Assembly: GCA_021234155.1 (NCBI GenBank)
Contig: JAJEKV010000073.1
Span: forward strand, 6,350,083 to 6,414,082
Source of the DNA: Isoetes taiwanensis
Taxonomy: Eukaryota; Streptophyta; Lycopodiopsida; Isoetales; Isoetaceae
Length of the DNA: 64,000 nt
Reading direction: 5' to 3'
The position numbers were made by a program, and so were the translations under genes. Below the pieces are notes generated by a model. That model was not told the origin of the DNA. It saw only the letters and a program-made list of their open reading frames with translations, and did no database searches. This document shows, piece by piece, positions 9,451-46,170 of the stretch (position 1 is the stretch's first letter; each line of letters starts with the position of its first letter).

Positions 9451-9599
9451 TCTCATCTGGAAAGAGATCGTGGAACTCCGTGATCAACTTAGCTATTTGC
9501 TTCCGCAACTTGCGAGCATCTTGTCTTCTTTGCTTCCTTCCAATTCCGGCTCGCTAATCTCAAGCTTGAAGATGTATGCTACTTGCTCACTCGGATGCA

Positions 9600-21230: not shown

Positions 21231-23875
<2,645 letters not shown>

Positions 23876-26650
23876 TGGAAGAATAGAATAGAATAAATTT
23901 TTTAACGTCCACGGAGACCAATAGGTCATGGGACCCATACAATGGGCTAGTACAATCATTACTACTAGGATTAAAAAACCCCTGCCTCGAAAGGTTTTCA
24001 AGGGAAAAACCTTTGCAGTAATGATGATACTAGACAAGCGGAGATAATGACTACTGAGGGATCAGTAATTGCCGACGTTTGTCTAGAACCTCAAGTATGT
24101 ATAATGCCAAGTCATGCACAGATGGTGCTCTGAGAAGTTGTGGAAGCGTGGAATGGAATGCTAAGGTCAAAAAATGATTCCGGACTATCTCAAAAGCAGG
24201 GCAACTCAGAAGAGTATGGCTTTCATCTTCAATAACCTATAACTGGCAACAGGCATATAGTCTCGCTTCTCGCGGCAATTGCGGCCGCTCCCATCTACCT
24301 GTCTCAATCCGTAGCCTGTGGGACCCCGTGCGAATTGATGTAATAGCTACAAGCTTGTTCCTGGACAATGAAGCAAGCAAATAAGCTTGGGGCCCTGGTG
24401 CCAAAGTGGGATTTATGTGTGCATGACAGTGTTGTTAAAAAACTCTGTTTTTAACCATAGAGTACTTTTAAAAAAACCCCTACGTTTTCTAAACGTTTGC
24501 AACCATCGTGGGTTATCAAAAACTGTAAAAAAAAAAAAAAACCCATTACTAATGCCTCGAATGACTTTCATCTTCTTCTTTTACAACTAATTTTATTTCG
24601 ATTCATTTTTTTCTATATTGCTTCTGAAGATCTGACTGCCATAAGTGATAAATAGAAGTAGGAAGTGAACCAAAACCGTTCCAAAGGTATAGCTGCTTCA
24701 AATAATTCTTTTTTACCTATATTTATTTCTCTTCTGTCTACCTCTAGTATGATAATAAGCTAAACCTTTATGTTAGTTGTTATATTATTAAGTTAAACCT
24801 TTGAATTGAATACACATTTTTGTGATTTGATTGGAACCCAAATATGGTGCTGGTATTAAAAAATGTTATATAATCTGTTTCAAAGGGGCAATTTGGGGTT
24901 TTTAAAGTTTTTTTTACGTTTTTAACGTTTGCAATGTTTTTAACGTTTTTAATATTATAAAAACGTATTCTAAGATTTTAAAAACCAAAAATAAAAAACT
25001 TTAAAAAAACTTAAAAAACGTATGGTACCCGTACGGTATGCAAAGTATGTAACAACATTGGTGCATGATAATGACCAGTTTTCACTTGGGCCAAAGTAAC
25101 TGCGTCCCATATCTTTTGAGAAAAACGACCATTGAGATATTGTTGCAAAAGCTGAGGATCAGAACTGGCAAGCATCAGGCAGTGCTCTGGTTACACCCCA
25201 ACGGGCAAACCATGTAGTGCAATGCTCTTTCCAACATCGTTTCAAACGCTGAGGAGATTCAGCCATGGCAAGTGCAAGAACAGGATACCTAACATCATCC
25301 ATGTGGTGCACCTTTATGGATATAGTGGAGATGGCGCTTCATGGCGTAATGTTGAAGAGGCCAAAAACCCGTCTCTTGTAAAAGAATAGCATAGGGCACC
25401 GTTGTTTTAACTCCAAGGCTGTAAGTGAGAAAGGACTTTTGCACCCGCTCCATGCTCTCCCAAGCACTAGCACTAATGGCGTGGCCCCCACACTTCGTAA
25501 CCATCACAAAAATGTGCTCTACCAAAACTTCGAAACAAGTGAGCTTTTCCGTGGCCAATCATGAATTTCTGGCGTGAAAACAATTGTTTTGCATTGCATA
25601 GAGTGCTCTCCATCCAAAGCAGACCACCCGCTTGGTAATACTTCGTTCCCAAAGTGTGTTCTTACAGAATTCTACACCAAGATACTTGTAGCTATCTACA
25701 ACTTCAACCCGGCGGCTATCATAGTGCATAGTGGGAACATTGTGACGAGAAGATTGAACTACCAAAAGCTTGGTCTTTTGGAGATTAACACGAGACTGTG
25801 TTCTCACAAAAATTGTGCAGAGCATGTAAATGTTGCCGCATACAAGCGGCAGTATGTGCGGAAGTGAAACATCATCAAGATACATAAATTGCCTAATGAT
25901 ATAGTGTGCCAAATGTGGACCTCCGCCATGATTATCAAGCCATTCTTCCAATTGATCGATGTACAAGCCAAAGAGTGTAGGAGATAAAGGGCAACCCCGA
26001 TTTAACTCCAATATTGCTAGTGATTTGAGTACCGATCTTTGGAAATTTAGCAAAAACCCTTTTATAGAGTCGATAAACTACATTTTGAAGATCTTGTGGA
26101 ACCCCAAGTGCACAGTTACCGCCAAAGAAGCTCATGATGGTGCTTGTATCAAAAGCAGAAGTAAAATCCACAAAGCATATATAGAGGTCTTGTTTCAAAC
26201 GTCGACTATGTTCAATAAGCATGCGCGAATGTGAAAATATGGTCTATTGTAGAATGGCATGGACGAAAAGCCCCGCCGCCCTACAAAGACGTATACCCAA
26301 GATATGTTACGCCCATGATGTCAATCGCTTCTCGTAAGACCGGCTAAGAGCTTTGAGAATATGGAACTTACCATGATCATGCGATAATTAGAAGGGTCAT
26401 GCTTATCACCGCTTTGTAAATTGGTACGACCTTATCGGGAAAATGCCCCCAAGTTTACGGCGCAAGCCTTCTTGCAAAGCTTGATTTAAAAGAGTAGTGA
26501 TGATTGAAAGCAATAGCGGACCCCCCCATTTAAGCAATTCTGCTTGCAAACCTTGAAGATCAGGAGACTTGCCATTAGATAGATGCCGCAGTCCTTCTTT
26601 GACTTCCTCCTCTGTGAATTGAAGAATATCACCTACCAAAGGAGAATGTA
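23876..26650 (-). pseudogene. LINE-B, 5'-truncated copy (unit 1), split by a hAT-like element
   Basis: Non-LTR element. The 3' end at about 23880 shows the hairpin-plus-TCCGTGGACGTTAAAA box and an ATTCT-repeat tail. ORF2 RT is visible at 25559-26222: CFVDFTSAFDT, LNRGCPLSPTLFGLYIDQLEEWLDN (in two pieces), QFMYLDDVSLPH (YLDD where sister copies have YADD), NLQKTKLLVVQSSRHN. Thumb and C-terminus are at 25295-25558. RT entry HLSNGKSPDLQGLQAEL is at 26406-26660. The copy stops abruptly at 26650 where unit 2 begins. 24427-25060 is a later insertion. Confidence 0.85.
24427..25060. mobile_element. Non-autonomous hAT-like element (unit 1)
   Basis: 634 bp, no coding capacity. Ends CAGTGTTGTTA and TAACAACATTG form an inverted repeat (10 of 11). 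It is flanked by a perfect 8-bp duplication GTGCATGA (24419-24426, 25061-25068). Eight-bp duplications and CA(G/A)TG-type termini fit the hAT superfamily. Unit 3 has the uninterrupted site. The interior holds TTTTTAACG-type repeats. Confidence 0.85.
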
Positions 26651-26654
26651 TGAG

Positions 26655-27750
26655 GAACATACATTCTCTAAAAACTGGTCATTCCCAAGAAATTTTTTAC
26701 CCGTTTGAGTGTTTTGGGAGGAGCAAGCTTCTTCAAGGCCTCAATTTTATTCTCTGCTACCTGAATACCTTTTGTAGACACTTCATGTCCCAGCAAGTCT
26801 CATTTTGAGCATAAAAAGACACACTTCTTTGGATTTGGGCTCACACCTCCTTTTTTGCATAAGGCAAATAGCTTTGTTAGACAATCAAAGTGGTATTTGA
26901 AAGAGGTACCTAAGCAGAGATCATCCAAGAAGGCACGAAATGCAGTTGGAGGTATATCCTTGAAGATAGTATCCATGGCTCTTTGGAAGGTTGCTGATGC
27001 ATTCATCAATCCAAAGGGCATTCTCCTCATTGCAAATGTTCCCCATGGTGTAATGAAAGAGGTCTTTGGCTGCTCTTCCTCCTTTATACTTATTTGATTA
27101 AAACCTGAGAAGCCATCTAAGAAAGAATAAATCTCCTTACCTGCAACAGCAGGCACACTTCTTCCAAGAAAGGCAAAGGGTAACAATCTTTGATAGTGGC
27201 TTTATTCAAGTCCCTATATTCCATGCAAATTCTTATGGTTTTGTTTTTCTTTTCAACAGGTACAACGCAAGATAACCATTCTAGATTTACATTTTTGAGA
27301 TCACACCAGCATCTTTCATTTTATATAACTCTTCTTTGATTATGCCAAGCAAAGATTCATTTATTCTCCTCAGCTTTTGATCCACAGGTTTCATCCCTTC
27401 CTTGATCTTTATTTCAAACTCACACACTCCTTTGTCAACACCAACTAGTGTAATCCAAGCAAAGATATCTTTCCATTCATCAAAAAATTTGGTGATAAAA
27501 GACTCATCCTCTTCTTTGAATAGATCTCCAACATACAGAACTCTATCTAGACCTTTTTTGTCCATCTTACCTCCTTTACCTATATTTTCCCCACTTGCAT
27601 TAATTACCAAGATAGGATAGAGTTGTTGCAAATCATCTTTTTCCAAGCTTCTTCTTGAATTGCTCCCTCAGCCAAATGCTCGAGCATGACACTTCTGCAC
27701 AATGCATCAGCTTCACAATTTGTGGCAGCTAAAGCTAACATCCCATTGCT
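26655..27750 (-). pseudogene. Gypsy B RT fragment (array unit 2)
   Basis: Duplicate of 19940-21080. RT palm is at 26800-27186 (FSGFNQISIKEEEQ, FRAFLDDLCLGTSF), RT entry and upstream region at 27287-27646. The frame is more intact than in unit 1. Small variants are shared with unit 3 and not with unit 1. Integrase and the RNase H end are absent. Confidence 0.85.
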
Positions 27751-28620
27751 CTGGATTTGGGAGACTCCTCTATGGAATAGGCTAGTGAAAATTTGCTACA
27801 AGGCAGTGAGCTAGCCAACCTTGCACAAAAAGGGTCTAATAAGGTACTAATAGCATCAATTCCCTCAGGCGTTTGCATTCCAACTGCTTCTCAGTCTATA
27901 GATAATCCTGCATCTACAACCATGTTGGACGCATAGTCTGTGTTATTTATGATGAATTTGCTTAGAAATTGTGGCTTATTATTGGTTAAATTATATGATA
28001 TTGCAGTTATGTATGATGTAGCAAGTAGTTTTATAATGGTTTTGCAATTATCTATATGATCTGAGTTTGCATTATGCTGAGTTTAATATTTGCGATGTTT
28101 CTACCCGATATGGCTGAGCTAGTTAACATAAGATTCAGTCACTTATAGATGACCATTTACAGACCTGAGAGCTGATTTCTTGCTTAACATCTACCTCTGA
28201 CCTCTTAGACAATATGAACAGGATCTTGTCTTAGATCTATGGGCATGGCTAGTTTTGATGCCTTTATCTTTCTCTAGTGTTGTATGGATCTAGTATTGAT
28301 CTGCAAATCATGGTTTTTATGCGGTGTTCTCGTAGGACCTCTGTGTTTACAATAATGCTATTTCTAACATGCGGGGCATTATTCTGCTCCACATTTCCAG
28401 AATCCAAATCGTGCAAAGGAAGGGGGGAAAAAAAAAAAAAAAAACTGGCCACAACAACGGCGATGGCATGGAGGGAGCAAAAGTAGAATGCTTACCAGGA
28501 CTGTGCTTGTGCAGATGCCAAAACGATATGTGCCAGGTCTGCGTTGTGAATTTTTTTCGCTAACTTTGTGAAGTTGAACTTCAGTCTGTTGGGTCAAGCT
28601 TAGCGTTGTATCTAAGTTTG
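27751..28620. other. Non-coding part of unit 2, left of element 2
   Basis: Matches units 1 and 3, but lacks about 1.3 kb between 28315 and 28320 (equivalent to 21753-23033), including the microsatellite. It shares with unit 3 a 120-bp deletion relative to unit 1 (GATTCAGTCACTTATAG at 28133). Ends TCTAAGTTTG at the element 2 insertion point. No gene. Confidence 0.6.
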
Positions 28621-30256
28621 TGTGACGTTTCACGTATTTATATGGTATACGTAACGTATTTATACGGTATACGTATAAATATACCGACACGTCACCCACT
28701 AAAGGTACGCCACCATGGGGTATTGCAACAACCAAAAAGGGATTAAATTAGCTATATCATTAAGGATAATAACCTATGATTAGGGAATTAAGGTCTAAAT
28801 GGATTAATTAGGTTAATTAATGCTTTGGGAAGGCGCCACCTGGCCTAAATCGATAGGCCAGCATGGGGACTTCCAAATTGGGCCATCAACTTGACCCCTA
28901 TCCCTAATTGACTCCCAAAAATCGTCCAAGAGGAGCAGGAGCTGAGCGCCTACCTTTGCCAAGCTGAGCGCCACCTTTGTCAAGCACTTATACCTGTGTA
29001 GCCAGAGCTGAGCGCCAAGTCCCAGGAAGATGGAAGCACCAAATGACAACGGATCCAACAGGAACTCAGGTGGGTGGTTAGTATAGCTTGAGAATTCTAG
29101 GGTAGCGCCCCTGTTGGGCACTGGTTGTGTTTGTTTCTCTGTTCTCTCTATGTTTTACTTGTAGGAACTAACCCTTGATTGTAAAGATGAGTTCTCTTTA
29201 TTTCTGATTCTGGTCTTGCTCTTAAAGGATGGATTGATAGTTCTTTGCATAGCTTTACTCTGGAAATGGGGGAAATAAGGGGGGTAGAGACCTCTGAGCC
29301 ATGTTAGTAGTATACTCCTAGGTTGATCCCTGTATTTCCCATTAGTTGCGGCCTGTGTACAAGAGACCACCGAGTCGTGGATGCTATGGAATGACTTAGC
29401 ACCAAATAAGGGACACAGTGGTGAAGTGGGGGTGGGGTCTTGCACGAACATAAAAGGCTCCTGAGACTCCTACAGTGGGCTAGGCCTGATAGCCGGTCAC
29501 GTAGAGGGCCGGGTATGGGTCTGACACTCCCTGGGTGTAGAGGTGTGATCTATATGGAGCATCTTGCACTTTGAGTAGATTTAGGGTGAGTAAGTTGGGT
29601 ACGGATGCGGGGGTCGCTGACGCGGCACGTATTCTCTAGCTCACCCATGGAACCACCGCGGATCCCGGAAGGGGACGCTTCCCCGACCTGCCTCATTCGG
29701 ACGGGCTTCATGAACCCCGAGTAGGCTCAAGGGTGATACCTTGAGTCTCTGCGGTCGGGAAGGCTATAGTGACGCCATAGCATGATTCACTCATCCGCAA
29801 AGTGTGCAATGAGAGGGGCGGATGGAGTGGACAACCCTAGCCGATGTTCTATGCCAGCCAACGCCATGTCAAGACTTCGGCCTGGGCTGATCTCTTGAGA
29901 CCTAGCCATCACCGATCCTTCACGGAGTCCGAGCCGGGTAGAACCATGGGTTTGGGTGTTTTCCTTAGTATTAAATGCATATTCTTTGTTGTTGTCACTT
30001 GATGGATGTGCCACCCCTCGTGGTGGTAAAATTATGATATGATTATGCTGTGTGCTAACTTTGTATTCACGCTTCCGACGTAGGAGCCCCATCAAGGCGC
30101 AATAATGACCCTCTCAGTGTCCTTCACTTGAGCATCTTCTTACAGATGGCCCAAGTTAGACTGAGGCCCCCCGCCATGGTGAGTTGGTTGCCATGGGAGG
30201 GAAAGTCCCCCGATGTATATGTCCGAAAGTGTCGTGATATGTTCGGGAGAGCCACA
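28621..30256 (+). repeat. Element 2 5' LTR
   Basis: Direct repeat of 38779-40411. Starts TGTGACGTTTC and ends GAGAGCCACA. Contains the block GTCCACTCCATCCGCCCCTC (minus sense, 29806-29866) that is also found in the LTRs of element 1, and a small inverted repeat CCACCCCTCGTGGTGG (30010) with a counterpart in element 1. Short ORFs inside it are not conserved coding sequence. Confidence 0.9.
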
Positions 30257-30258
30257 GT

Positions 30259-30270
30259 TGGTATCGTGAG
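30259..30270 (+). other. Primer-binding site of element 2
   Basis: TGGTATCGTGAG begins three bases after the LTR. The first seven bases match the initiator-Met tRNA primer site, and the mismatch falls at CAG. Same sequence as in element 1. Confidence 0.6.
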
Positions 30271-30431
30271 TGGTTTTGGGAAACCAATCTAATTGCACTG
30301 GCCACATACTAACTCGTTAGATCGTTAGTAGTGAGTGAGGATTTCGGAGTAGTATGAGATTTGGGTGGTGTAGTAGATGCCGTCATGATTGATTTAATGT
30401 GGTTTAAGTCTAATATTGGTATATGTACCCG

Positions 30432-30531
30432 GTGCGAAACCCTAACCCTAAGTGGCGGGCAGGGGGTACCCGGGTGTTGTTGGCAACGGTGGCGAGGTCG
30501 GGATAGTGTCTGCCCGCCACCCTAATTATTA

Positions 30532-30565
<34 letters not shown>

Positions 30566-30655
30566 CTAACCCTAAGTGGCGGGCAGGGGGTACCCGGACG
30601 CTTCTGGCGGCCGTAGCAAGGTCGAGGTAGGGGGTGCCCGCCACCTAAAAAAATG
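30432..30655 (+). promoter_or_regulatory. Duplicated leader module with telo-box and GTGGCGGGCA/TGCCCGCCAC inverted repeat
   Basis: Two copies (about 30436-30525 and 30561-30650) of AAACCCTAACCCTAAGTGGC, then GGGCAGGGGGTACCCGG, closing with TGCCCGCCAC. The arms GTGGCGGGCA (30452, 30576) and TGCCCGCCAC (30511, 30635) are perfect inverted repeats. A run of about 30 A lies between the copies. AAACCCTAA is the plant telo-box found in promoters of growth-related genes. The location just upstream of the H3 ORF suggests a promoter role. That role is inferred. Confidence 0.45.
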
Positions 30656-30862: not shown

Positions 30863-32221
30863 ATGGAGGAACCTAAGCAGGTATACAAGCGCAAGCCTCG
30901 CTATTCTAAATCTCCCATAGAGTCCCTGATGGCCGAACTGCTGCCACGCCCAAACCCATCGCCAGAAGAAGAGGCTAAAACTGAGGAATTATTGGAGTAT
31001 TTTGTTAAACGTTTTTATGAAGGGGTTAGGATACCATACCCGCTCTTCTGCTATAACGAGCGCTTTGTATATAAGCTTAACGCCATCCGAGAGTCCTATA
31101 CCGTAGTTGAACAGGAAGATGGTGTCCAGAAATATACACGGTTCTTCCCACCGGAAGGGGATGAGCAAGCTGAAGCCGAGGCCATACAAACGCAGGCCCA
31201 TAAGATCCTTCACATGGCACAAGCAGCGGACCTACAGTGGCTTGCAGCCGATGACCCAGCTTCAGGGTACCGTTATCTTGGTAACGGGATGTGCCTCTTT
31301 AACAGGGGGTCATACACCATTCCATCTTTTTCATATGAGCAGGAGACAAATCGTATCATTTGGGAAGCTGGAACACCCCCATTTTTCACAGATCAGTTCC
31401 AGCGGGCTGTCGAGCAGGACATGCAGGCCAATCCCCCACGGTACTTCCTGGAGCTTAAAAGGAGAACAGACATCTGGCTAGCCGGGGAAAAACGGGCAGA
31501 GGACCAGGTAACACTCCAAGCACAAGCACAAGCGGCAGCTCAGTTAGCAGAGGAGGCTGCTAAGCTTCGTGAAGATACCCTCCATGCACAGCAGCAGCTA
31601 GAACAGGAGCAGAATAGGAAAAGAATGCAGGATGAAGCAGAGCAGAGGGCGAGAGAGGCAACAGAGGCAGTTAAGGAGCGGCTTAGGAAAGAAGAACAGG
31701 AATGAGACCGTCAAGATCAGCCACCTCCGAATGTTTCTATTCCTCGCCGAAGACTGAAGAAGACACCCCGTAAGTCGGGTGCTCAGTATAAGGATCAGCT
31801 CAAGGCTCGGGGTGGTGTCGCTAAGGCTGCAGGGGACAATCGGCGAGATGAGATCATCCGAAAGGCCCGACATCCAAGGACAGCAGGGAAAACTATTCCT
31901 GGAGCCCCACCCCAGCCTAAGAGGAGGCATCGTTATAAGCCTGGCACCGTAGCACTTAGGGAAATAAGAAAGTATCAGAAATCTACCGAGTTCTTGCTAC
32001 GGAAACTTCCCTTCCAGCGTTTGATCCGAGAGATTGCTCAAGAGTTTAAGACGGATCTCCGGTTTCAGACTCATGCAATTCTAGCACTCCAGGAAGCGGC
32101 TGAAGCCTATTTGGTGGCCCTCTTTAGCGATGCAAATTTATGTGCTATCCATGCTAAGCGAGTGACGATAATGACAAAGGACCTTCAGCTGGCACGCCGG
32201 ATCCGTGGGGAACGGCCGTGA
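30863..32221 (+). CDS. Element 2 ORF1: N-terminal domain, coiled coil and C-terminal histone H3
   Basis: Start ATG 30863 ([18 protein letters not shown]) and stop TGA 32219-32221, 452 residues if the single in-frame TGA at 31703-31705 is ignored. Residues 1-200 are an unrecognised domain ([37 protein letters not shown]). About 205-290 is an Ala/Gln/Glu-rich coiled coil. About 300-355 is a basic tail with TPRKSG, reminiscent of the ARKS motifs of H3. Residues 356-452 are a complete H3 fold: [83 protein letters not shown]. By eye, roughly four in five fold positions match canonical plant H3, with no CENH3-type longer loop 1. H3 with H4 forms the nucleosome core. Here the protein is retroelement-encoded, between 5' LTR and gag. 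The TGA may be a CGA-to-TGA change, readthrough or an error. Confidence 0.93.
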
Positions 32222-32486: not shown

Positions 32487-33894
32487 ATGGATTATGCTGG
32501 GCGCCTAGCATGGTACATGGGAGGCGAGCAATGGGATCCTCAGGTCCCCTACCCTCTTCTAGACCCCTTCCTGCAGTGCAAAGTTGATCTCGTCGACAAC
32601 ATGCGGGCACACCCTGATTATGACACCTTCCTAGAGTTTTATGACGAGGAAATCCTGCCCCAAGCAGAGTTTTTCGGAGAGCCGCCTCAACCCTATCTCC
32701 ATAGGGATATCTTAGGGCACATGTTTGGGGATGACCGTCACAGTTATGATATTCTTAAGAGCATTGTCAGACGTGCTAAGCACGCCCCCATTATTGACTG
32801 TGGCTCTAACGAGCTGTACTTTGAGGCCCAGTTTGCCCTTGCGCTCATCATGGATAGGTATGTTGACGGTACCGACACGGCCTTAGAGCAAGCCAAGTCC
32901 CCACTTCCCCCAGATCCTGAGGAGGATGAGGAGATAAGCTATGCCGACTTTGTAAGATGGAAGAAATTGGCCACAGAGAAGCCTTCCTCGTAGCAAGGGC
33001 CAAGCTCTTGTCGGCTTAAGCTCCCTTCCTACTATAAAGGTTGGGGATCAAGATTACTTGCTACTGAGCGACATTCAATGGGGATATCAGCATATCGCCA
33101 ATAAGGGCAAGCAAAAGACGGCTCATCTCCTCTATGAGCTGGCCGAGTATTGTCAGGGTCAGAACGACTTCATCGATTATTCTCGACCCGTCTATGTGCC
33201 AGAGATACACCAACTGCTCAACTATCAGCCTCTTGATGTTGAGCCTATCAACACACTGTTATCCTTACGGCAGTTAATGATTCAGGGTACTCCGTCCTCA
33301 ATTCCTGAATCGGCTTTCCACGCTACGGCCCCACATGTTCCCAACATCAACGATGTCGTCGTCAAGGTCGAAGACGACCCAACTATGGAGGATCTATGTG
33401 ATGAAGGCCAGTATGCTCAGGAGGAGAAAGATTTTGCTATGGAAGAGGAACTGCCCCAGAACTTGGAGTCTGAATTGGCTTCTTCAACCCATCCGACTGT
33501 TGCGGGGTTGAAATGCCATATTACCCGATTCTTCTTGTCGGCCTTCACGAGCAAGCAAGTCCTCTTCTTTGCTAAAGCAATTGCACCTAAAGCAGAGGCG
33601 GCTGTATGGGCACTTAGGGCACTTTCTACGACAGCCGGCCATAAGAAGTTGCCCACTAACCTCGAGCAGGTCATCCTGGTAAATCGTGATCTGGCCATTG
33701 CAGTATTTGACCACGACATCGGCTCTTGGATGAATTTGAGTCTCCTGATTGCAGCGCCATTAGCTACAAATGTTCCTCCAGAGATAGCTTCATTAGCTGC
33801 CTCATCAGTTAACCCTAGTGTGTTACTTCTGCAGCACCGACCAGAGCCTGAGTTTGATATCCAAGCACAAGATGTTGAAGGGTCCACCTCTTAG
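32487..33894 (+). CDS. Element 2 ORF2: N-terminal domain plus C-terminal histone H2A, one frameshift
   Basis: ATG 32487 (MDYAGRLAWYMGGEQW). This frame stops at TAG 32991. The +1 frame is open through the overlap and runs to TAG 33892-33894, so one shift near 32960-32990 joins about 470 residues. Residues 149-245 of the downstream part (33502-33792) match H2A in order and nearly without gaps: AGLKCHITRF (H2A AGLQFPVGRI), AIAPKAEAAV (AGAPVYLAAV), VILVNRDLAIAVFDHD (RIIPRHLQLAIRNDEE), LLIAAPLATNVPPEI (LLGRVTIAQGGVLPNI). The last piece is the H2A docking tail. The spacing AAV-26 residues-R(D/H)L is identical to H2A. The upstream part, SYDILKSIV... ALIMDRYV... PTIKVGDQDY... QHIANKG, faintly resembles H2B. 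The protein would pair with H2B in an H2A-H2B dimer. Confidence 0.8.
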
Positions 33895-33936: not shown

Positions 33937-34640
33937 TTGATTGGTATTACCTTTAATGGGCCATCACATAATCTATGTACTATCTTCTTATATATTCAGG
34001 GTATCTTCTTATATTTTCTTGTACTGTTGAAAACCATTGAATTGACTTTTTACCGGTTGGAGCAAAAGAGTATGTCAGTCCAGGCCTACACATATGAGTT
34101 CATGCGCCTGAGGCTGTACGTGCTGGGTATGAATGAAAAGAGGGCGGTGGAGGGTTATATTGAAGGATTGGCCCCATCAATTAAACGAATGGTTAAGGCT
34201 ATAGACCCCAAGTCGGTTGCAGAGGCTGAGGCTAAGGCATTGAGCCTTGAAGAGGACACGCCGCAAAGCTAGTACCAACGTCCAGCACCTTACTCCCAGC
34301 CACGCCCATACACACCTTATAAGGGTCGTTCGCCGAGTTCGGGACCCTCTCAGCAGAACTCTAACAGCCGCTAGGAAAGGAAAGTCTCCTTCAGCGTGCC
34401 CAATAAATCGCACAATGTCGGTAAGGAAGTTCGGAACCTCTTACAGTCCATTCCCAAAGAGGCCCGAGAACAGCTCCGCCGAGATAAGGCATGCTGTGTG
34501 TGTATGCGACCCCGCACTTCATGCAGAATTGTCCTTATGTCACGCAGACTGCCCAGCTGGCTATGGCCGACCTCGACTGGGATGATCTTGAGTCTACACT
34601 ACCTGTTGAGGAAGGACTCCAGAGTATATTCACGGTGCAT
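33937..34640 (+). pseudogene. Element 2 gag remnant with zinc knuckle
   Basis: Retrotransposon Gag C-terminal capsid part: LEQKSMSVQAYTYEFMRLRL, NEKRAVEGYIEGLAPSIKRM, ending at TAG 34270-34272. The usual N-terminal half is missing, replaced by hydrophobic AT-rich translation, so gag is truncated. At 34483-34530, CCVCMRP followed after a slip by HFMQNCP gives a CX2CX4HX4C-type zinc knuckle. Gag coats genomic RNA and builds the particle. Confidence 0.75.
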
Positions 34641-35299: not shown

Positions 35300-36205
35300 G
35301 TGTACTAAGCCTACCAAAGAAGGCCCCATACCGTATGAGTCCCCCGAGTTGGCGAGCTTAAGAAGCAACTTCGTGAGTTACTAAACCTAGGTTTCATTCG
35401 CCTAGTGTTTCGCCTTTTACGCCCAATCATTTTGTTAAGAAAAAGGATGGCTCCTTGAGAATGTGTATTGATTATAGGCAGCTCACTAAGCATACCATCA
35501 AGAATCGCTACGCTTTGCCTAGGGCAGATGATCTAATGGACCAGTTGCAAGGGGCCAAATATTTCTCAAAGATTGACTTACGCTCCGGATGTCATCAAAT
35601 AAGGATTAAGGAGGAGGACATCCATAAATCTGCTTTTCGCACTAGATATGGGCATTATGAGTTTACTGTTATGCCTTTTGGACTGACTAATGCCCCCGCG
35701 ACTTTTATGCGGTTAATGAATGATGTCTTCCGCCAATACTTGGATGACTTTGTTGTGATTTTCTTTGATGACATTCCCATCTACAGTAAAACTCTAGAGG
35801 AGCATGAGGCCCATCTTCGCTTGGCCCTACAAAAGCTAAAACGCCATCAGCTCTTTGCCAAATTCTCTAAATGCAAGTTTGCCACTCCCAAGGTGGACTA
35901 TTTAGGCCATGTCATTTCTACGACGGAATTGCTAATGGATCCAAAGAAAAATAGAGGCAATCAAGGATTGGCCTATTCCTGGTAATGTGTCAGAGGTCCG
36001 AAGTTTCTTGGGATTGGCAGGATATTACCGGAAATTTGTTAGGGATTTTGCAAAGATTGCAGCACCTCTTACCGATCTTACAAAGCATGAGAAGGTAAAG
36101 GATTGGATTGAGCATTGGAAAACAAAGGTCCGTGGAAATTTTAAGCTTAAGGATGCTTTAACCTCAAAGACCAGCCCTCACATTGCCCGATCCCTAAAAG
36201 GATAA
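35300..36205 (+). pseudogene. Element 2 reverse transcriptase
   Basis: RT of a Ty3/gypsy chromovirus. Longest open part is 35455-35985: [60 protein letters not shown], and catalytic [14 protein letters not shown] (FFDD; Pro replaces the usual Leu/Val after DDI). Then LGHVIS, and at 35987-36205 [19 protein letters not shown]. The two pieces are joined by one shift near 35980. Confidence 0.9.
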
Positions 36206-36589: not shown

Positions 36590-37707
36590 CTCTACACTCA
36601 CCGCTGAGTTTGGGAAACGTGATAGAATCGTACCTTGGCCACCGATCCCGAAGTTCCGCGGATGTTTGGGTTAGTTTGGCTAAGGAAGCACGCATTGATA
36701 AAGAACGCCAAGCTTTCCGCTCGTGACAAGAAAGAAGGCAACTTGTTATATTACAAAGATAAGTTGTGTGTACCGAGACTTCGTGGAGCGCGAACCGATT
36801 CTCCATGACACGACAACAGCCCTATAACCGACATGCAGTTTTATGAAGACCTACTTTAAGATCCGCTCCCGCTTATTTCGCCTTCGATGAAGAAGGATAT
36901 TGCTAGATACATTAAGCGCTGTCGTGTGTCAACAAACCAAGGTTGAGCAATTAAGAGTTCCGTGAGAGTTGCAACCTCCGGATGTGCCCAACGCTAAGTG
37001 GGAAGTGATAACCATGGATTTCATTGTGGGCCTTCCACGCATCTCGCGGGATATGATGCATTGATGGTAGTGGTCGACAAATTGTCGAAAATGGCTCATT
37101 TCTTGCCATGTCGCACCACCGGATAGAGCCTTCGACATCGCTATGCTATTTGCCAAAGAGATCTTCGGGATTACACGGAATGCCTCGAAAGTGATTGTAT
37201 CCGACCGGGATCCCAAATTCGTAAAGTGCATTATGGAAAGATTTCTTTGCCACCATCCGCATACAAAGCTTGCTATGAGTACGCCTATCATCCTCGACGG
37301 ATGGTCAAACAGAACGCATTCAATCATATTATCAAGATATGCTACGGTTATGTGTGGTGTAAGCAATCGCAATGGGTCGACTATATATATCCGTAGAGTT
37401 TGCCTATATAACAAAGATGAAACAAGAGTCTTCCAGATGTCTCCCTTTATGATAAATTATGGTTATCAATGTCTTACTCCGCACACATGGCATAACCCCG
37501 CTTATTCTAAGGTGGAGGTTTCTCAACAACCTCTTGGAAATGCAAGTCTTGGTTGAAGAAGTTCGGGGTTACTTATTAATGCACGCAATGGGCCGTAAGA
37601 GTGTAGCGGATAAGCACGTAACCCCACGAAGTCTTCCAGTGGGCTAATCAGTTTGGCTTAAGATTAAAGTAAAACAAGCCAAGCTTAAGATTGGTAACTG
37701 CAAGAAG
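36590..37707 (+). pseudogene. Element 2 integrase core
   Basis: Core recognised by VPNAKWEVITMDFIVGLPRI (first Asp, about 37013), AMLFAKEIFGITRNASKVIV, SDRDPKF (second Asp, about 37200) and MINYGYQCLTPHTW (about 37450-37500). The TDGQTE stretch that carries the Glu is unreadable here (ILDGWSNRTHS). The H2C2 zinc region (36840-36960) is also damaged. Confidence 0.8.
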
Positions 37708-38148
37708 TTGGCACCCAGATGGGCTGGGCCGTTCAAAATCATTGAACGTGTTGGAGAACAGGCATATCGCTTGGATTTGCCACCCCGCTTGAAGATCCAC
37801 AAGGTCTTTCACGTGAGTCTTCTGAAACAACACACCCCTGATCCAGAGGAGGTTTTGGATACCCCAACCCTCCTAGAAATGACAGAGGAGCAGTTGGAGA
37901 TAGTGCCTGAAGCTCTTCTTGATCGAGCTTATAAACAAACCAGAAGGACTCAAATGTTGCAATACTTGGTTAAGTGGAAGCACTTACCAGTTGAGGATGC
38001 TACCTGGGTGATGAAGATAGACCTTGACAAGCACTATCCGGACTTCATGCGGGAATCTCAAAGCCGCACCATCAACGATGCTATCAACCCCGCAACCGGC
38101 GGTAAGCTTGGAAGCTTGATTGCCAAGAGTAATGCTCTACAGGGGTAG
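37708..38148 (+). CDS. Element 2 integrase C-terminus: GPF module and chromodomain
   Basis: Open for 146 codons, the C-terminal part of Pol. It has the GPY/F module PRWAGPFKIIERVGEQAYRL, the linker IHKVFHVSLLKQH, then a chromodomain at about residues 70-115: EALLDRAYKQTRRTQMLQYL, VKWKHLPVEDATWV, DLDKHYPDF. Chromodomains read histone tails (methylated H3 in the classical case) and steer integration. The two Trp of the KW...TW pattern are present. The same domain with near-identical wording (LQYLVKWKHLP) occurs in element 1. A chromodomain together with an encoded H3 is the notable combination. Confidence 0.93.
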   Translation: MAPRWAGPFKIIERVGEQAYRLDLPPRLKIHKVFHVSLLKQHTPDPEEVLDTPTLLEMTEEQLEIVPEALLDRAYKQTRRTQMLQYLVKWKHLPVEDATWVMKIDLDKHYPDFMRESQSRTINDAINPATGGKLGSLIAKSNALQG

Positions 38149-38778: not shown

Positions 38779-40411
38779 TGTGACGCTCCATCGATTTATA
38801 CGGGTAATGCGAACGTATTTATACTGATAATGATAAATATATCGACACGTCACCCACTAAAGGTACGCCACCATGGGGTATTGCAACAACCAAAAAGGGA
38901 TTAAATTAGCTATGCTAATTTAATCATTAAGGATAATAACCTATGATTAGGGAATTAAGGTCTAAATGGATTAATTAGGTTAATTAATGCTTTGGGAAGG
39001 CGCCACCTGGCCTAAATCGACACACAAAGATGGGGACTTCCAAATTGGGCCATCAACTTGACTCCTATCCCTAATTGACTCCCCAAAAATCGCCCAAGAG
39101 GAGCAGTGAGTCGAAGGCCTACCTTTGCCAAGCCGAGCCACCTTTGTCAAGCACTTATATAATTGTAGCCGAGAAGCCGAGCCAAGTCCCGTGAAGATGG
39201 AAGCACCAAATGACAACGGATCCGCCAGAACTCGTGTGGGTGGTTAGTATAGCTTGAGAATTCTAGGGTAGCCCATGTTGGGCAATCGGTTGTGTTTGTT
39301 TCTCTGCTCTTTCTATGTTTTACTTGTAGGAACTAACCCTTGATTGTAAAGATGAGTTCTCTTTATTTCTGATTTCGGGTCTTGCTCTTAAAGGATGGAT
39401 TGATAGTTCTTTGCATAGCTTTACTCGAAATGGGGGAAATAAGGGGGTAGAGACCTCTCGAGCCATGTTAGTAGTATACTCCTAGGTTGATCCCTCAGAT
39501 TTCCCATTAGTTGCGGCCCGTGGGTACAAGAGACCACCGAAGTCGTGGATGCTATGGAATGACTTAGCACCAAACAAGGGACACAAGGGTGAAGTGGGGT
39601 GGGGTCTTGCACGCAACATAAAAGGCTCCCCCCGAGAGGCTAGGCCTGATAGCCTGGCCACGAGGGGCGGGTATGGGTCCGACACTCCCCCGGGTGTAGA
39701 GGTGTGATCCGTATGGAGCATCTTGCACTTTGAGTAGATTTAGGGTGAGTAAGTTGGGTACGGATGCGGGTCGGGCCGACACGCACGATTCTCTAGCTCA
39801 CCCATGGAACCACCGCGTGATCCCCGAAGGGGATGCTTCCCGACCTGCCTCATCGGACGGGCTTCATGAACCCCGGAGTAGGCTCGGCGGTGATACCTTG
39901 AGTCTCAAGGCGGTCCGTAAGGCTATAGTGACGCCATAGCATGATTCACTCATCCGCAAAGTGTGCGTGAGGGGCGGATGGAGTGGACAACCCTAGCCGA
40001 TGTTCTATGCCGCCCAACGCCATGTCAAGACTCTGGCCTCGCCGATCTCTTTGAGACCTAACCCACACGATCCCACCGAGTCCGAGCTGGGTAGAACCAT
40101 GGGTTTGGGTGTTTTCCTTAGTATTAAATGCATATTCTTTATTGTTGTCACTTGGATGGATGTGCCACCCCTCGTGGTGGTAAAATTATGATATGATTAT
40201 GCTGTGTGCTAACCTTGTATTCACGCTTCCGCCGACGTAGGGAGCCCCATCGGCGCAAATAATGACCCCTTTGTGTCCTTCACTTGAGCATCTTCTTACG
40301 ATGGCCCGAAAGTTAGACAGAGGGCCCCGCCATGGTGAGTTGGTTGCCATGGGAGGGGAAAGTCCCGTGATGTATACGCCCGAAAGGTCGATATGTTCGT
40401 GGAGAGCCACA
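38779..40411 (+). repeat. Element 2 3' LTR
   Basis: Copy of 28621-30256. Long identical blocks are interrupted by short patches of difference at sites that in the 5' LTR contain CTGAG, CTCAG or CAGG (for example 39100-39120 versus 28940-28960). Confidence 0.9.
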
Positions 40412-40950
40412 GCTTTGCAAAGGGGAACTACAGTTTGCGGATTTGCAAGTGTCAGCCATAGTCTTCCGAAGAATGAATGCTTGCCGATTTTTTCTCCCCA
40501 CCTTTAGCAACGCAGAGGCCAGACAAAAACTTATCAAGGTAAACTTGTATGCAATCTAAGCCAAGGTAAACTTGTCATGCGATACATGGAAGAAGGGATT
40601 CCGATACATCAAAAGGAAATATTGGCTTGCGCTACAGAATATGGCTTCATGTACATTGCCGGAATATGGTGGATTCTGTTGCAATGCTTCAGCAAGAACT
40701 GCACTTCAACAAGAGACTCGTCTGAGGTGATACAGAATCTGGTGTATGCTTTGAATTCTGCTACTTGCAGTCCAGAATTACTAGCTTCTACCGAATTGAA
40801 AAAACTAGTTTCTCAACCACGAATTTAGACCTTAGAACCTTGCGCACGAAAGATTAAACCGGAGCTCTTCATAAAACTAAACCCAAAAACCTAGTTCATA
40901 ATCCTTTTACATCTTTACCTTAATCATAAAGGTAGTCATGCATAAAATGG
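40412..40950. other. Non-coding part of unit 2, right of element 2
   Basis: Continuation of the unit interrupted by element 2. It closely matches unit 1 at 23330-23870. The 83-codon ORF at 40577-40828 recurs in units 1 and 3 but has no recognisable domain. I do not call it a gene. Confidence 0.5.
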
Positions 40951-43080
40951 AAGAATAGAATGGAATAGAATAAATTTTTTAACGTCCACGGAGGGTCATG
41001 GGACCCATACAATGGGCTAGTACAATCATTACTACTAGGATTAAAAAACCCCTGCCTCGAAAGGTTTTCAAGGGAAAAACCTTTGCAGTAATGATGATAC
41101 TAGACTGACTACTGAGGGCTCAGTAATTGCCGACGTTTGTCTAGAACCTCAAGTATGTATAATGCCAAGTCATGCACAGATGGTGCTCTGAGAAGTTGTG
41201 GAAGCGTGGAATGGAATGCTAAGGTCAAAAAATGATTCCAGACTATCTCAAAAGCAGGGCAACTCAGAAGAGTATGGCTTTCATCTTCAATAACCTATAA
41301 CTGGCAACAGGCACATAGTCTCGCTTCTCGCGGCAATTGCGGCCGCTCCCATCTACCTGTCTCAATCAGTAGCCTGTGGGACCCCGTGCGAATTGATGCA
41401 ATAGCTACAAGCTTGTTCCTGGACAATGAAGCAAGCAAATAAGCTTGGGACCCTGGTGCCAAGGTGGGATTTATGTGTGCATGACAGTGTTGTTAAAAAA
41501 CTCCGTTTTTAACCATAGAGTACTTCTTAAAAAACCCCTACGTTTTCTAAACGTTTGCAACCATCGGGGGTTATCAAAAAATGTAAAAAAAAAAAAAAAC
41601 CATTACTAATGCCTCGAATGACTTTCATCTTCTTCTTTTACAACTAATTTTATTTCGATTCATTTTTTTCTATATTGCTTCTGAAGATCTGACTGCCATA
41701 AGTGATAAATAGAAGCAGGAAGTGAACCAAAACCGTTCCAAAGGTATAGCTGCTTCAAATAATTCTTTTTTACCTATATTCATTTCTCTTCTGTCTACCT
41801 CTAGTATGATAATAAGCTAAACCTTTATGTTAGTTGTTATATTATTAAGTTAAACCTTTGAATTGAATACACATTTTTGTGATTTGATTGGAACTCAAAT
41901 ATGGTGTTGGTATTAAAAAATGTTATATAATTTGTTTCAAAGGGGCAATTTGGGGTTTTTAAAGCTTTTTTTACGTTTTTTACGTTTGCAATGTTTTTAA
42001 CGTTTTTAATATTATAAAAACGTATTCTAAGATTTTAAAAACCAAAAATAAAAAACTTTAAAAACTTAAAAACGATGGTAAATTGCACGGTATGCAAAGT
42101 ATGTAACAACATTGGTGCATGATAATGACCCGCCACTTGGGCCAAAGTAATCAAGGCCCCATATCTTTTGAGAAAACCACCATTGAGATATTGTTGCAAA
42201 AGCTCGAGGATCGAATCGGCAAGCATCGCAAAGGTTTCGTTGCACTGCCCAACCGGCAAAACCATGTAGTGCAATGCTCTTTCCAACATCGCTTCAAACG
42301 CCGAGGAGATTCAGCCATGGCAAGTGCAAGAACATGATACCTAACATCATCCATGTGGTGCACCTTGCAGATATAGTGGAGATGGCGCTCATGGCGTAAT
42401 GTTGAAGAGGCCAAAACCCGTCTCTTTGTAAAAGAATAGCATAGGGCACCGTTGTTTTAACTCCAAGGCCGTAAGTGAGAAAGGACTTTGCACCCGCCTC
42501 CAAGCTCTCCCAAGCACTAGCACTAATGGCGTGCCCCCATACTTGAACCATACAAGAAAACAAGCTCTACCAAAGCCCCAAACAAGTGAGCTTTCCGTGG
42601 CCAATCATGAATTTCTGCTAAAAACAATTGTTTTGCATTGCATAGAGTGCTCTCCATCCAAAGAGCCACCCGCTTGGTAATACATCGTTCCCAAAGTGTG
42701 TTCTTACGCAATTCTACACCAAGATACTTGTAGCTATCTACAACTTCAACTTCAAGGCTATCATAGTGCATAGTGGGAACATTGTGACGAGAAGATTGAA
42801 CTACCAAAAGCTTGGTCTTTTGGAGATTAACACCCGCACTGTGTTCTCACAAAACCGCGGCAGAAGCATGTAAATGTTGGCCGCATACAAGCAAATGGTA
42901 TGTGCCGAAGTGAAACATCATCAGCATACATAAATTGCCTAATGATATAGTGTGCCAAATGTGGACCTCCGCCGCCATGATTATCAAGCCATTCTTCCAA
43001 TTGATCAATGTACAAGCCAAAGAGTGTAGGAGATAAAGGGCAACCCTGACGAACTCCAATATTGCTAGTGATTTGAGTAT
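40951..43080 (-). pseudogene. LINE-B copy of unit 2 (main part)
   Basis: 3' box and ATTCT tail at about 40950-40990. ORF2 C-terminal and thumb parts are at 42035-42807 (FLTYGLGVKTTVPYAILLQ), and the RT palm at 42827-43060 (YIDQLEEWLDNHGG, QFMYADDVSL). It is interrupted by the hAT-like copy (41485-42114) and, at 43080, by a 1.44-kb insert. RT upstream of the insert resumes at 44521-45080. Confidence 0.85.
41485..42114. mobile_element. Non-autonomous hAT-like element (unit 2)
   Basis: 630-bp copy of 24427-25060 at the same position in LINE-B, with the same 8-bp duplication GTGCATGA (41477-41484, 42115-42122). It was copied by the tandem duplication and did not insert independently. Confidence 0.85.
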
Positions 43081-43195
43081 CCTGGTAGTAATATGCCTGC
43101 TGCTCTCTCTTTGTACTTGGGTCCCATAGGCCAGTTGGTCTCCTCCGTGGACGATAAAATCATATTCTATTCTATTCTATTCAATCATATTCAAC
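43081..43195 (+). pseudogene. Short LINE 3' end in plus orientation
   Basis: About 110 bp resembling the reversed LINE-B 3' end: TCCTGGTAGTAATATG, GGGTCCCATAGGCCAGTTGG, TCCGTGGACGATAAAA, then ATTCT repeats. It forms the left edge of the 1.44-kb insert in unit 2 and points opposite to the surrounding LINE-B. Confidence 0.65.
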
Positions 43196-43639
43196 CATTT
43201 TGCAAGAACAGGAATAAGGAGACACTTTAAAAGGTACCTCTAACTGCTGAATGATATCTTGTGATGCTTTCTCTACTATACCACATGAATCTAAGTCTTC
43301 GCTAAATAGTTCTTCATTTCTGCTATGCATGTATAGAAGGGTGGAGTTGTTGCAACCTATCGAGTAGGCAGGATACAGAAGAACAAAACACGTCCTATCT
43401 TTCTCCAATTTTTTGACATGGCTAGCCATCTTCATATCTTGCAGAAATATTGTAATTTAAGTGGATTACCTTACGTTTCAGGAACATTTGTCATTGCAAC
43501 AATTAGCCCAATAAAGTTCTGAGTTAACTAAAGTAGCTCGCTTAGCACGTAAGTGAGCAGTATATAGAGGGGTTCGAGCAATTATTTTTTTATCATCTAC
43601 ATATTGATCCCTGCTTTAGTTATTAGATCAGTGTTTGGA

Positions 43640-44180
43640 TCAAATGCAGTTAGAAGGTATTGCTCCTGATTGCTGTTATATTTACATGCAATTTGAAAGC
43701 TTGCAGTGGCAAAGCTATAGACCGGGATAGAGAAATACATAATGAGGTTTTGCAGCAAGGACTTGAAAAGGTTGTTATTCTTGGCATGTCATGTATGTTA
43801 AATGTGGCACACTTGTAGAGGCTTGTAAAACTTTTAACAACCTAGCAGCTCAAGAGGTGTAGTATCTGGGAATTCGATAATGTCAGGACATGGAGAAGAT
43901 GGTTTTGCCTAGGTAGCCATCAAATTATTTGAAGAGATGAACCTAGGACTAGCATATTCAAATTTTGTCACATTTATTTGCAGTTTGAAATGCTGTCGAT
44001 ACACAAGGGCCATAGCCAAGGGCGCGACAATACATGCTGAGATTGCCCTTGAAGTACTTAAGGAAGATCCTTGTGTTGCAAATGGTTTAAATTGACATGT
44101 GTGTGAAATGCAACTCTCTTGGAGAGGCTCAGGATGTCTTTGACAAGGAAATATAGTGGCAGGAGATATTGACAATGGGT
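43640..44180 (+). pseudogene. PPR protein pseudogene fragment
   Basis: Pentatricopeptide-repeat sequence in shifting frames: MQLEGIAPDC, LKACSGKAIDRDREIHNEVL, QQGLEKVVILG, VMYVKCGTLVEACKTFNNLA, NFVTFICSLKCCRYTRAIAK, GATIHAEIALEVLKED, PCVANGL. These are successive ~35-residue helical repeats of the plant organellar RNA-binding family. Stops and shifts occur in every repeat, and there is no start or end. The flanks 43196-43639 and 44181-44520 show nothing else. Probably a captured or duplicated exon piece. Confidence 0.8.
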
Positions 44181-44520
44181 GTAGTTTAGAATGTTGGTAA
44201 GTTAGAAGGTGTCATCAAATGATAGCAATTGTGCTCAATTCTTAGCAGTTGTGCTCATCTCTTCATGGATATTTCTGTAAATAAGGGAGTCAAGGGTGCA
44301 TAGTTCAATGGTTAAAAAGGGTTAAAGATGTAACCATTGAACTTGTATATACATGACCAATTATTTATGTTTATAAAGGTTCGAAATAAGGAAAGTTGGA
44401 GGGAATAGTAATATGAATATGTCGGCCACTGAGACCGACCAAATCTTCTGCCTAAACCGGCGTTCTGCACCGATCCTGTAAACCATAAATTGTACAGAAC
44501 CTCAGAGATAATATGTTCGA

Positions 44521-45083
44521 TGATTGCAGATCTTGTGGAACCCCAAGTGCCTACAAGCGCTGCCAAAGAAGCTCGCATGGTACTGTATCAAAAGCAGAAG
44601 TAAAATCCACAAAGCATATATAGAGGTCTTGTTTCAAACGTCGACTATGTTCAATAAGCATGCGCAATATGAAAATATGGTCTATTGTAGAATGGCATGG
44701 ACGAAAGCCTGCATGTCCTACAGCACGTACACCAGTATGTTCTGCCCATGATGTCAACTGCTTCTCAATAAGACTGGCTAAGAGCTTTGAGAATATGGAA
44801 CTTACCATGATCATGCGATAATTAGAAGGGTCATGCTTATCACCTGCTTTGTAAATTGGTACGACCTTACTGACAGCCAAAGTCAAGTTTTGGCAAGCCT
44901 CTTGCAAAGCTTTGATTTAAAAAGAGTAGTGATGATTGAAAGCAATAGCAGACCCCCATTTAAGCAATTTCGCTTTGCAAACCTTGAAGATCGAGACTTG
45001 CCATTAGATAGATGCCGCAGCCCTTCTTTGACTTCCTCCTCCGTGGAATTGAAGAATATCACCTTACTAAAGGAGAATGTATG
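44521..45083 (-). pseudogene. LINE-B copy of unit 2, RT N-terminal part
   Basis: Resumes LINE-B after the insert: VPIYKAGDKHDPSNYRMIMV, HAGFRPCHSTIDHIFILRML, LYICFVDFTSAFDTVP (44551-44907, the most readable RT stretch in the window), then LRHLSNGKS (44883-45095). It is cut at 45083 by the junction to unit 3. Confidence 0.85.
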
Positions 45084-46170
45084 AGGAACATACATTCTCT
45101 AAAAACTGGTCATTCCCAAGAAATTTTTACCCGCTTGAGTGTTTTGGGAGGAGCAAGCTTCTTCAAGGCCTCAATTTTATTCTCTGGCTACTGAATACCT
45201 TTTGTAGACACTTCATGTCCCAGCAAGTCTCATTTTGAGCATAAAAAGACACACTTCTTTGGATTTGGGCTCACACCTCCTTTTTTGCATAAGGCAAATA
45301 GCTTTGTTAGACAATCAAAGTGGTCTTTGAAAGAGGTACCTAAGCAGAGATCATCCAAGAAGACACGAAATGCAGTTGGAGGCATATCCTTGAAGATAGT
45401 ATCCATGGCTCTTTGGAAGGTTGCTGATGCATTCATCAATCCAAAGGGCATTCTCCTCATTGCAAATGTTCCCCATGGTGTAATGAAAGAGGTCTTTGGC
45501 TGCTCTTCCTCCTTTATACTTATTTGATTAAAACCTGAGAAGCCATCTAAGAAAGAATGAATCTCCTTACCCGCAATGTAAAGCACACTTCTTCCAAGAA
45601 AGGCAAAGGGTAACAATCTTTGATAGTGGCTGTATTCAAGTCCCTATATTCCATGCAAATTCTTATGGTTTTGTTTTTCTTTTCAACAGGTACAACGCAA
45701 GATACCATTCTAGATTTACATTTTTGAGATCACACCAGCATCTTTCAGTTTATATAACTCTTCTTTGATTATGCCAAGCAAAGATTCATTTATTCTCCTC
45801 AGCTTTTGATCCACAGGTTTCATCCCTTCCTTGATCTTTATTTCAAACTCACACACTCCTTTGTCAACACCAACTAGTGTAATCCAAGCAAAGATATCTT
45901 TCCATTCATCAAAAAATTTGGTGATAAAAGACTCATCCTCTTCTTTGAATAGATCTCCAACATACAGAACTCTATCTAGACCTTTTTTGTCCATCTTACC
46001 TCCTTTACCTATATTTTCCCCACTTGCATTAATTACCAATACAATAGAGTTGTTGCAGATCATCTTTTTCCAAGCTTCTTCTTGAATTGCTCCCTCAGCC
46101 AAATGCTCGAGCATGACACTTCTGCACAATGCATCAGCTTCACAATTTGTGGCAGCTAAAGCTAACATCC
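45084..46170 (-). pseudogene. Gypsy B RT fragment (array unit 3)
   Basis: Third copy of the RT fragment. Palm is at 45230-45616 (FRVFLDDLCLGTSF). RT entry plus the upstream RNase H-like tail lie in one frame at 45716-46168 (LALAATNCEADALCRSVMLE, DQKLRRINESLLGIIKEELY). The continuous frame confirms that the DALCR segment belongs to the same polyprotein, N-terminal to RT. Confidence 0.88.

Follow-up and report, generated by a model that had tools for sequence, protein, structure and literature searches.

A histone H3 core carried by a lineage of chromodomain Ty3/gypsy retrotransposons in Isoetes taiwanensis

Introduction

Plant Ty3/gypsy chromoviruses are delimited by LTRs and a short target-site duplication, encode a Gag with a Ty3_capsid domain and a zinc knuckle, and carry their enzymes in the order PR-RT-RH-INT with a chromodomain at the C-terminus. 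The element of Isoetes taiwanensis described here shares this organisation but differs from plant chromoviruses in that Gag is preceded by extra ORFs, and the first of these ends in a histone H3. Core histones encoded by parasites are known from viruses, namely the H4 of bracoviruses and the histone doublets of Marseilleviridae.

Extra ORFs in 3372 Ty3/gypsy elements from 80 surveyed plant species were reported by Neumann et al. (2019; PMC6317226), and the domains given for them in the main text are the plant mobile domain, Transposase_28 and Athila ORF-1; "histone" appears there a single time, as the target of the chromodomain. Alvarado-Marchena et al. described captured domains, including AlkB, in LTR elements across 121 angiosperm genomes, section 12 of their paper containing no histone, and the AlkB m6A demethylase of orchid Gypsy elements is proposed there to counter host surveillance (PMC9289625). 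Histone sequence has been described within a rolling-circle transposon, the Culex Helentron, as eight copies with H4 and H15 fragments that contain a stop, a frameshift and indels (PMC4067079). The main texts of the genome papers on I. taiwanensis (PMC8566536) and I. sinensis (PMC10541799) report Gypsy elements and do not contain the word "histone". Within the open-licence PMC literature, with subscription papers and preprints outside the scope, no earlier report of an intact core histone encoded by such an element was found.

Results

The window, which is the whole 64,000-nucleotide stretch of I. taiwanensis DNA that was analysed, contains a Ty3/gypsy element of a chromodomain-type family, an old and broken copy with an H3 inside it. 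Self-BLAST and LTR alignment placed the 5' LTR (TGTGACG...CCACA) at 28621-30256 and the 3' LTR at 38779-40411, both on the forward strand, as are all features of the element given below, and the two LTRs have diverged by a K2P distance of 0.111. Comparison with empty sites identified a left target-site duplication, GTTTG (28616-28620), and a right one, GCTTTG (40412-40417), so that the LTRs are flanked by a short duplication as in chromoviruses, the right copy being one base longer. The same window holds the uninterrupted target site AAGTTTGCAAAGG twice, in paralogous copies of the host segment at 23311-23370 and 48116-48175 (both forward strand). Given the LTRs, the target-site duplication and the two undisturbed sites, this is a clean retrotransposon insertion, of some age, with the H3 inside; the first-pass annotation had likewise placed the H3 ORF inside bounded Ty3/gypsy LTRs, and a reverse transcriptase, an integrase tail and a chromodomain follow it.

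Three parts of the window (21384-28322, 40414-46749 and 46924-50736) are copies of a single host segment, diverged (about 86-99%); one copy holds the inserted H3 element and the remaining copies are empty sites. Frames resembling a non-LTR reverse transcriptase, named by eye, lie in the host-segment copies at 25559-26077 and 49647-50141 (both reverse strand). A second gypsy pol lies at 6701-9468 on the reverse strand and is 66% identical to the pol of the H3 element over 2.9 kb.

The 5' LTR is followed by a putative primer binding site, TTGGTATCGTGAGTGG (30257-30274), read by eye, which we take to be of the initiator-Met-like family, and by two 85-bp leader repeats with poly(A) between them (30437-30645), each starting with AAACCCTAACCCTAA, which is telomere-like. 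The frame at 30863-32221 comprises 453 codons with a single internal TGA (31703-31705), copies with an open frame existing elsewhere in the genome. It consists of an N-terminal domain and helical linker (30863-31702) with no convincing relative in Pfam or the PDB, a basic linker (31706-31927) and, at its end, a histone H3 core running from alphaN to alpha3 and the C-terminus, stop included (31928-32221). ORF2 is split over two frames (32487-33894) and has no known domain, and of Gag there is a C-terminal remnant with a broken zinc knuckle (34045-34640), ORF3 and the N-terminal half of Gag having been lost. The reverse transcriptase (35377-35985; RVT_1 7.3e-36) and the SH3-like C-terminal domain of the integrase with its chromodomain (37648-38148; SH3_Tf2-1 5.4e-22, Chromo 1.2e-08) lie downstream. 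This copy has a single stop in ORF1 but several breaks in pol.

The part of ORF1 after the TGA matches the Pfam Histone profile with 146.8 bits and an E-value of 4.7e-43, against a curated cut-off of 26.4 bits, which was the check proposed for the initial claim that H3 forms the C-terminus of the first ORF in a frame with one TGA. Its best relatives in the PDB are H3.3 and H3 chains (E up to 4.5e-53, residues 52-170). The core (31928-32218, locus L009) aligns to host H3 with no indels, in keeping with the earlier description of alphaN to alpha3 with canonical loops, and mean core identity to host H3 is 86-88% in each of four subfamilies. The hallmark of CENH3 is a divergent core with a longer loop 1; with this level of identity and no indel, the element H3 does not have the features of a CENH3. 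In an H3-directed protein search the best 120 of 4862 proteins were H3-bearing proteins of many eukaryotes, none of which was recognised as a member of the Isoetes element family. ORF1 is 394-459 amino acids long from a recognised start in 23 copies, among them L019 with an internal stop, and is an extra ORF of at least 250 codons on the forward strand upstream of the polyprotein.

Searches of the one genome, 1,658,258,908 bases (1.658 Gb) in 1110 contigs, indicate that the window's element is one of many: H3 is carried family-wide by a chromodomain Ty3/gypsy lineage with at least four ORF1 subfamilies (A, B, C and D). A Pfam Histone profile search, in which the best 150 of 8705 first-look candidates were scored, returned 15 top matches at 164-165 bits, of which the eight fetched were all ordinary host H3 genes, and the other 135 matches were taken as element-type. 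Merged with a search using the window's H3 half (best 150 of 9233 scored), these place element-type H3 at a minimum of 244 distinct places on many contigs. An element ORF1 was seen in all 50 of the H3 places inspected. The longest open frames among the listed H3-search matches reach 546 amino acids from stop to stop, and lower-scoring copies are decayed and frameshifted in H3. The LTR search (best 40 of 7743 candidates) listed 44 matches, 36 of them at least 1.4 kb long; besides the window's own, the other 35 of this length have 86-90% identity.

The H3 is also linked in position to the rest of the element. Among the best 150 of 27147 first-look candidates for the reverse transcriptase, 39 are preceded, at 2-9 kb and on the same strand, by a listed H3, and the spacing is clustered, with 22 of the 39 pairs at 5.1-5.27 kb; among the matches listed, the controls gave no pair with the order reversed and one with the two on opposite strands. 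A listed H3 lies 0.2-3.5 kb upstream of 47 of the 141 listed ORF2 matches (none reversed, none on the opposite strand) and within 1.6 kb downstream of 99 of the 139 listed matches to the ORF1 N-terminus. The remaining 40 N-terminal matches, without a listed H3, were sampled in 12 downstream stretches: H3 or its frameshifted remains were present in 10, and no H3 was found in the other two (L087 and L089).

Three better-preserved copies from other subfamilies, read in separate pieces (L054/L059/L060, L044/L061/L062 and L053/L063/L064), have H3 between LTRs that are 95.2-95.7% identical in the parts read. The fullest order, in L060, is ORF1, ORF2, ORF3, Gag, PR, RT, RH, INT and chromodomain; most of ORF3 is missing from L062, and RT and RNase H from L064. 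Stops or frameshifts interrupt ORF2 and parts of pol in each of the three copies. The first-pass annotation had put the H3 ORF directly upstream of gag; the order stands, but the two are not adjacent, since ORF2 lies between them and, in two of the three copies, ORF3 as well. Gag of L060 matches Ty3_capsid (2.7e-15) and Retrotrans_gag (5e-15), while its zf-CCHC match (0.0093) is below the Pfam cut-off, the CCHC motif being read by eye. RT, RNase H, H2C2, rve, SH3 and chromo domains were gathered from L060 and L062 and, pooled from these two, follow the chromovirus order PR-RT-RH-INT with a terminal chromodomain. Of the three aromatic cage positions, which we presume from comparison with HP1, the element's chromodomain by eye lacks two. 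Neither ORF2 nor ORF3 has a Pfam match in L060, L062 or L064; ORF2 frames of 470-510 amino acids, stop to stop, occur in many of the 141 listed matches, and ORF3, of about 170 amino acids, was seen in L060 and L064.

Conservation of the H3 core was examined in 58 fetched loci, 30 from the H3 search, 20 from the Pfam Histone search (chosen for subfamily spread and mostly with long frames) and eight host loci. The full 94-residue core is present in 57 of these, eight host and 49 element, L033 being the exception among the 50 high-scoring element loci, and no indel occurs in any of the 57; six of the 49 element cores contain a stop codon. Once L051, a duplicate of L022, had been removed, the residues C110, H113, L126, I130, T45, R83, K56, K79, D81, E94 and E97 were unchanged in all 48 cores, and R63, R72, R116 and D123 were kept in 45-47. 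Thus the positions to which we assign, as an assumption, roles in H3-H3' and DNA contacts are retained with the exceptions of R42, which is Lys in 28 of 48 cores, and R40, which is His in four. All 48 share T107A, and in place of E105 they have either G or S.

Substitution ratios (NG86) were calculated for 28 long ORFs (9 A, 14 B, 3 C and 2 D), a choice of long open frames that favours conserved copies, although the core of L019 contains a stop, and saturated pairs were excluded from the medians. The median omega of the core is 0.047 in A (36 pairs) and 0.036 in B (91 pairs), with 0.032 in C (three pairs) and 0 in D (one pair). For the N-terminal domain the medians are 0.128 in A (36 pairs) and 0.142 in B (73 of 91 pairs computable), with 0.098 in C and 0.158 in D, and for the linker they are 0.228 in A and 0.259 in B (69 of 91 pairs), all subfamilies lying within 0.17-0.37. 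Between subfamilies the core omega is 0.045, for which only 17 of 247 pairs were computable. This comparison across copies, suggested at the outset as a check on the H3 segment, sets a core median of 0.036-0.047 in A and B beside 0.13-0.14 for the N-terminal domain. In open-frame copies the ratios show that the H3 core is under strong purifying selection, and it is clearly more constrained than the neighbouring regions of the same frames; furthermore, the N-terminal domain is itself under selection.

The extreme N-terminus of ORF1 resembles that of H3. Host H3 begins MARTKQTARKS, and the starts of the element ORFs are MARTKGTKS in D, MANTKSA or MANIKST in C, MPRFKLT in B and MEEVKQV in A, so that Lys stands at H3 position 4 in 23 of the 23 starts recognised by eye among the 28 ORFs (three B copies have two consecutive Met). 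The peptide MARTKGTK is encoded at 59 places in the genome in 29 synonymous spellings, its backward control at none, and a listed element H3 lies 0.3-1.8 kb downstream of 14 of the 59. Twenty of these places were fetched: one has an ORF open through H3, and short H3 motifs lie downstream in most (at least two motifs in 12, one in five, none in three). In a check independent of the peptide, on 12 low-identity H3-search matches with starts outside the MARTKGTK list, all seven starts that could be placed have Lys4 (three MARTK and four MA[NI][TI]K), four copies had lost the start and one gave no match. Because the N-terminus keeps this ARTK-like start, ORF1 may derive from an H3 into whose tail a domain was inserted.

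The ARKS motif of the H3 tail is mostly missing before the core. Host H3 has two ARKS sites in eight of eight genes, whereas within 75 amino acids before the core ARKS is found in two of 48 element sequences, PRKS in 18 and neither in 28; TARKSG occurs in three of 12 older stretches (L089, L090 and L094). Loss of K36 was considered and rejected, Lys being kept at position 36 in 27 of 48. When the basic linker was aligned to the H3 tail, between 60 and 459 of 500 shuffles reached the observed score in the 11 sequences compared, and the linker as a displaced H3 tail around K9 and K27 was therefore set aside as a finding and kept as a possibility. As the linker does no better than its shuffles, neither the loss nor the retention of K9 and K27 can be assigned to individual residues.

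The first-pass annotation had credited the protein with N-terminal and coiled-coil domains of its own. The N-terminal domain is borne out, and a long helical linker is present in subfamily A, to which the window's copy belongs, but the linker of subfamily B is Q-rich. A search of about 5.8 billion proteins with the window's N-terminal piece gave 1958 candidates, none of them a homologue at E<=0.001; for 15 aligned N-termini, likewise, no homologue was found at E<=0.01 among the 8000 candidates that ranked highest by shared words, and searches against the PDB and Pfam gave weak, chance-level matches only. In the IMG/VR viral contigs, a set that possibly does not include Isoetes kin, an N-terminal peptide pattern matched 57 stretches, none of which was confirmed. 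The structure predicted for the N-terminal piece alone has a mean pLDDT of 52.7 and is confident only at about residues 221-280, as one long helix; Foldseek with this model returned nothing at E<=0.001.

All 39 element sequences form one branch (100/98) when compared with host H3 and nine other eukaryotic H3s, in a tree of 50 rows with few columns and with many inner forks open. This is most simply explained if a host H3 was captured once, long ago, and then kept as the C-terminus of ORF1; a single recent host retrocopy is excluded by the minimum of 244 places, the four or more subfamilies and the near-saturated synonymous divergence. Between subfamilies, pS is 0.67-0.88 for the H3 core and 0.71-0.78 for the N-terminal domain, that is saturated or nearly so, and the dS of Gag-Pol is 0.40-0.87 in seven piece comparisons. 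BLASTN between subfamilies aligns Gag-Pol pieces at 79-87% and LTR pieces at 68-89%, and of ORF1 it aligns only the H3 part, at 70-80%. Between subfamilies Gag-Pol therefore appears to be younger than ORF1. Given a Gag-Pol dS of about 0.4-0.9 against a near-saturated ORF1, we infer that ORF1, perhaps together with ORF2, has been exchanged as a cassette between related backbones, for which homogenisation of Gag-Pol is an alternative.

Discussion

An H3 of such sequence pairs with H4 and dimerises through C110, H113, D123 and L126. It is suggested that the ORF1 H3 domain would fold with host H4 and form (H3-H4)2, that ORF1 would then go into nucleosomes as an element-made replacement for H3, and that the element DNA, either fresh cDNA or new copies, would thereby gain chromatin that is poorly marked by host silencing. 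With an N-terminal part of 230-300 amino acids and mostly no H3-type ARKS site, ORF1 might be a weak substrate for methylation of the K9/K27 type; fewer ARKS-type sites would mean poorer methylation and weaker silencing, and the element would stay expressed. The balance tips slightly in favour of this reading, in which a captured and selected H3 enters nucleosomes with host H4 and leaves the chromatin of the element poorly marked. The fuller statement is offered more tentatively: that an LTR lineage makes its own nucleosomal H3, its tail bearing an element-specific domain, under near-histone-level constraint and traded as a cassette, and that the resulting chromatin escapes silencing.

Four other functions or fates of the H3 have to be weighed. 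First, ORF1 might be deposited in open chromatin like a replacement H3, its N-terminal domain docking Gag or integrase so that the H3 steers integration. The presence of H87 and L90, presumably an H3.3-like pair, in subfamilies A and D is consistent with such deposition, as are a chromodomain in the element's integrase and the strong divergence of the N-terminal domains in contrast to the H3 core. Nevertheless, this is unlikely for two reasons: first, Gag-Pol is similar between subfamilies despite very different ORF1 N-termini, which argues against a tight fit between ORF1 and integrase. Second, the chromodomain, by eye, is without two of its three cage residues; the idea of a contact with the chromodomain integrase, raised in the first-pass annotation, appears weakened by this, the cage positions being those we take over from HP1.

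Second, ORF1 and host H4 might coat the cDNA in the particle or at nuclear entry, in the manner of a nucleoprotein and not as lasting chromatin. Most of the DNA-contact and H3-H3' residues checked are retained, and ORF1 precedes Gag in the same orientation; however, the Gag already has a nucleic-acid binder in its zinc knuckle (CCHC by eye, below the Pfam cut-off), and such a role is considered quite unlikely. Third, ORF1 might deprive host H3 of H4 and H3 chaperones, or poison host nucleosomes, and so loosen silencing across the genome. The H3 core is retained, and the very long tail would be expected to give aberrant nucleosomes, but the DNA-contact residues are mostly retained too, even though a decoy need not keep them, and this possibility is regarded as very unlikely.

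Finally, the captured H3 might ride along unused. Fragments of host genes are common in transposons and many copies of this H3 are broken, that of the window included. Nevertheless, the core omega of 0.036-0.047, the presence of H3 in all subfamilies despite near-saturated synonymous change, and H3 or its remains in 10 of the 12 sampled stretches without a listed H3 speak against this reading, which is already contradicted by the selection on the core and is left with little probability. A late insertion or assembly join confined to one element is negligible, the H3 spacing upstream of RT and ORF2 being clustered in many elements on many contigs, which excludes the join that had been named as a refutation, and three other copies having H3 between LTRs about 95% identical.

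In the conflicts between transposons and host chromatin known to us, the elements act on marks, enzymes or RNA; an element-supplied core histone, if the suggested nucleosomal role is true, would act on the nucleosome itself. The family amounts to many natural H3 variants in which the core is fixed and the tail replaced, and could make the requirements for the H3 tail directly testable. It further suggests that retrotransposons can capture and keep core histones, which bears on the origins of viral histones and of odd H3 variants, and an H3-carrying family may have shaped Isoetes genomes.

The anatomy of the element is of a known kind, a gypsy element with extra ORFs, and the H3 cargo is, as far as could be found, without precedent. 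Ogre (plant mobile domain), Retand (Transposase_28) and Athila (ORF-1) have, like the Isoetes element, a fast-evolving extra ORF outside the polyprotein. The domains reported for them are, however, not histones, and these elements belong to non-chromovirus lineages (PMC6317226, main text). The Gypsy AlkB elements of orchids are alike in that a host-type regulatory protein has been captured and kept, but there the cargo is an RNA demethylase and here it is a histone (PMC9289625). Bracoviruses and Marseilleviridae also provide core histones encoded by a parasite, but these are large DNA viruses and not LTR retrotransposons. The Culex Helentron, like the Isoetes element, has histone sequence within a transposon (PMC4067079); unlike in the Helentron, the H3 core of the Isoetes element is complete and under selection.
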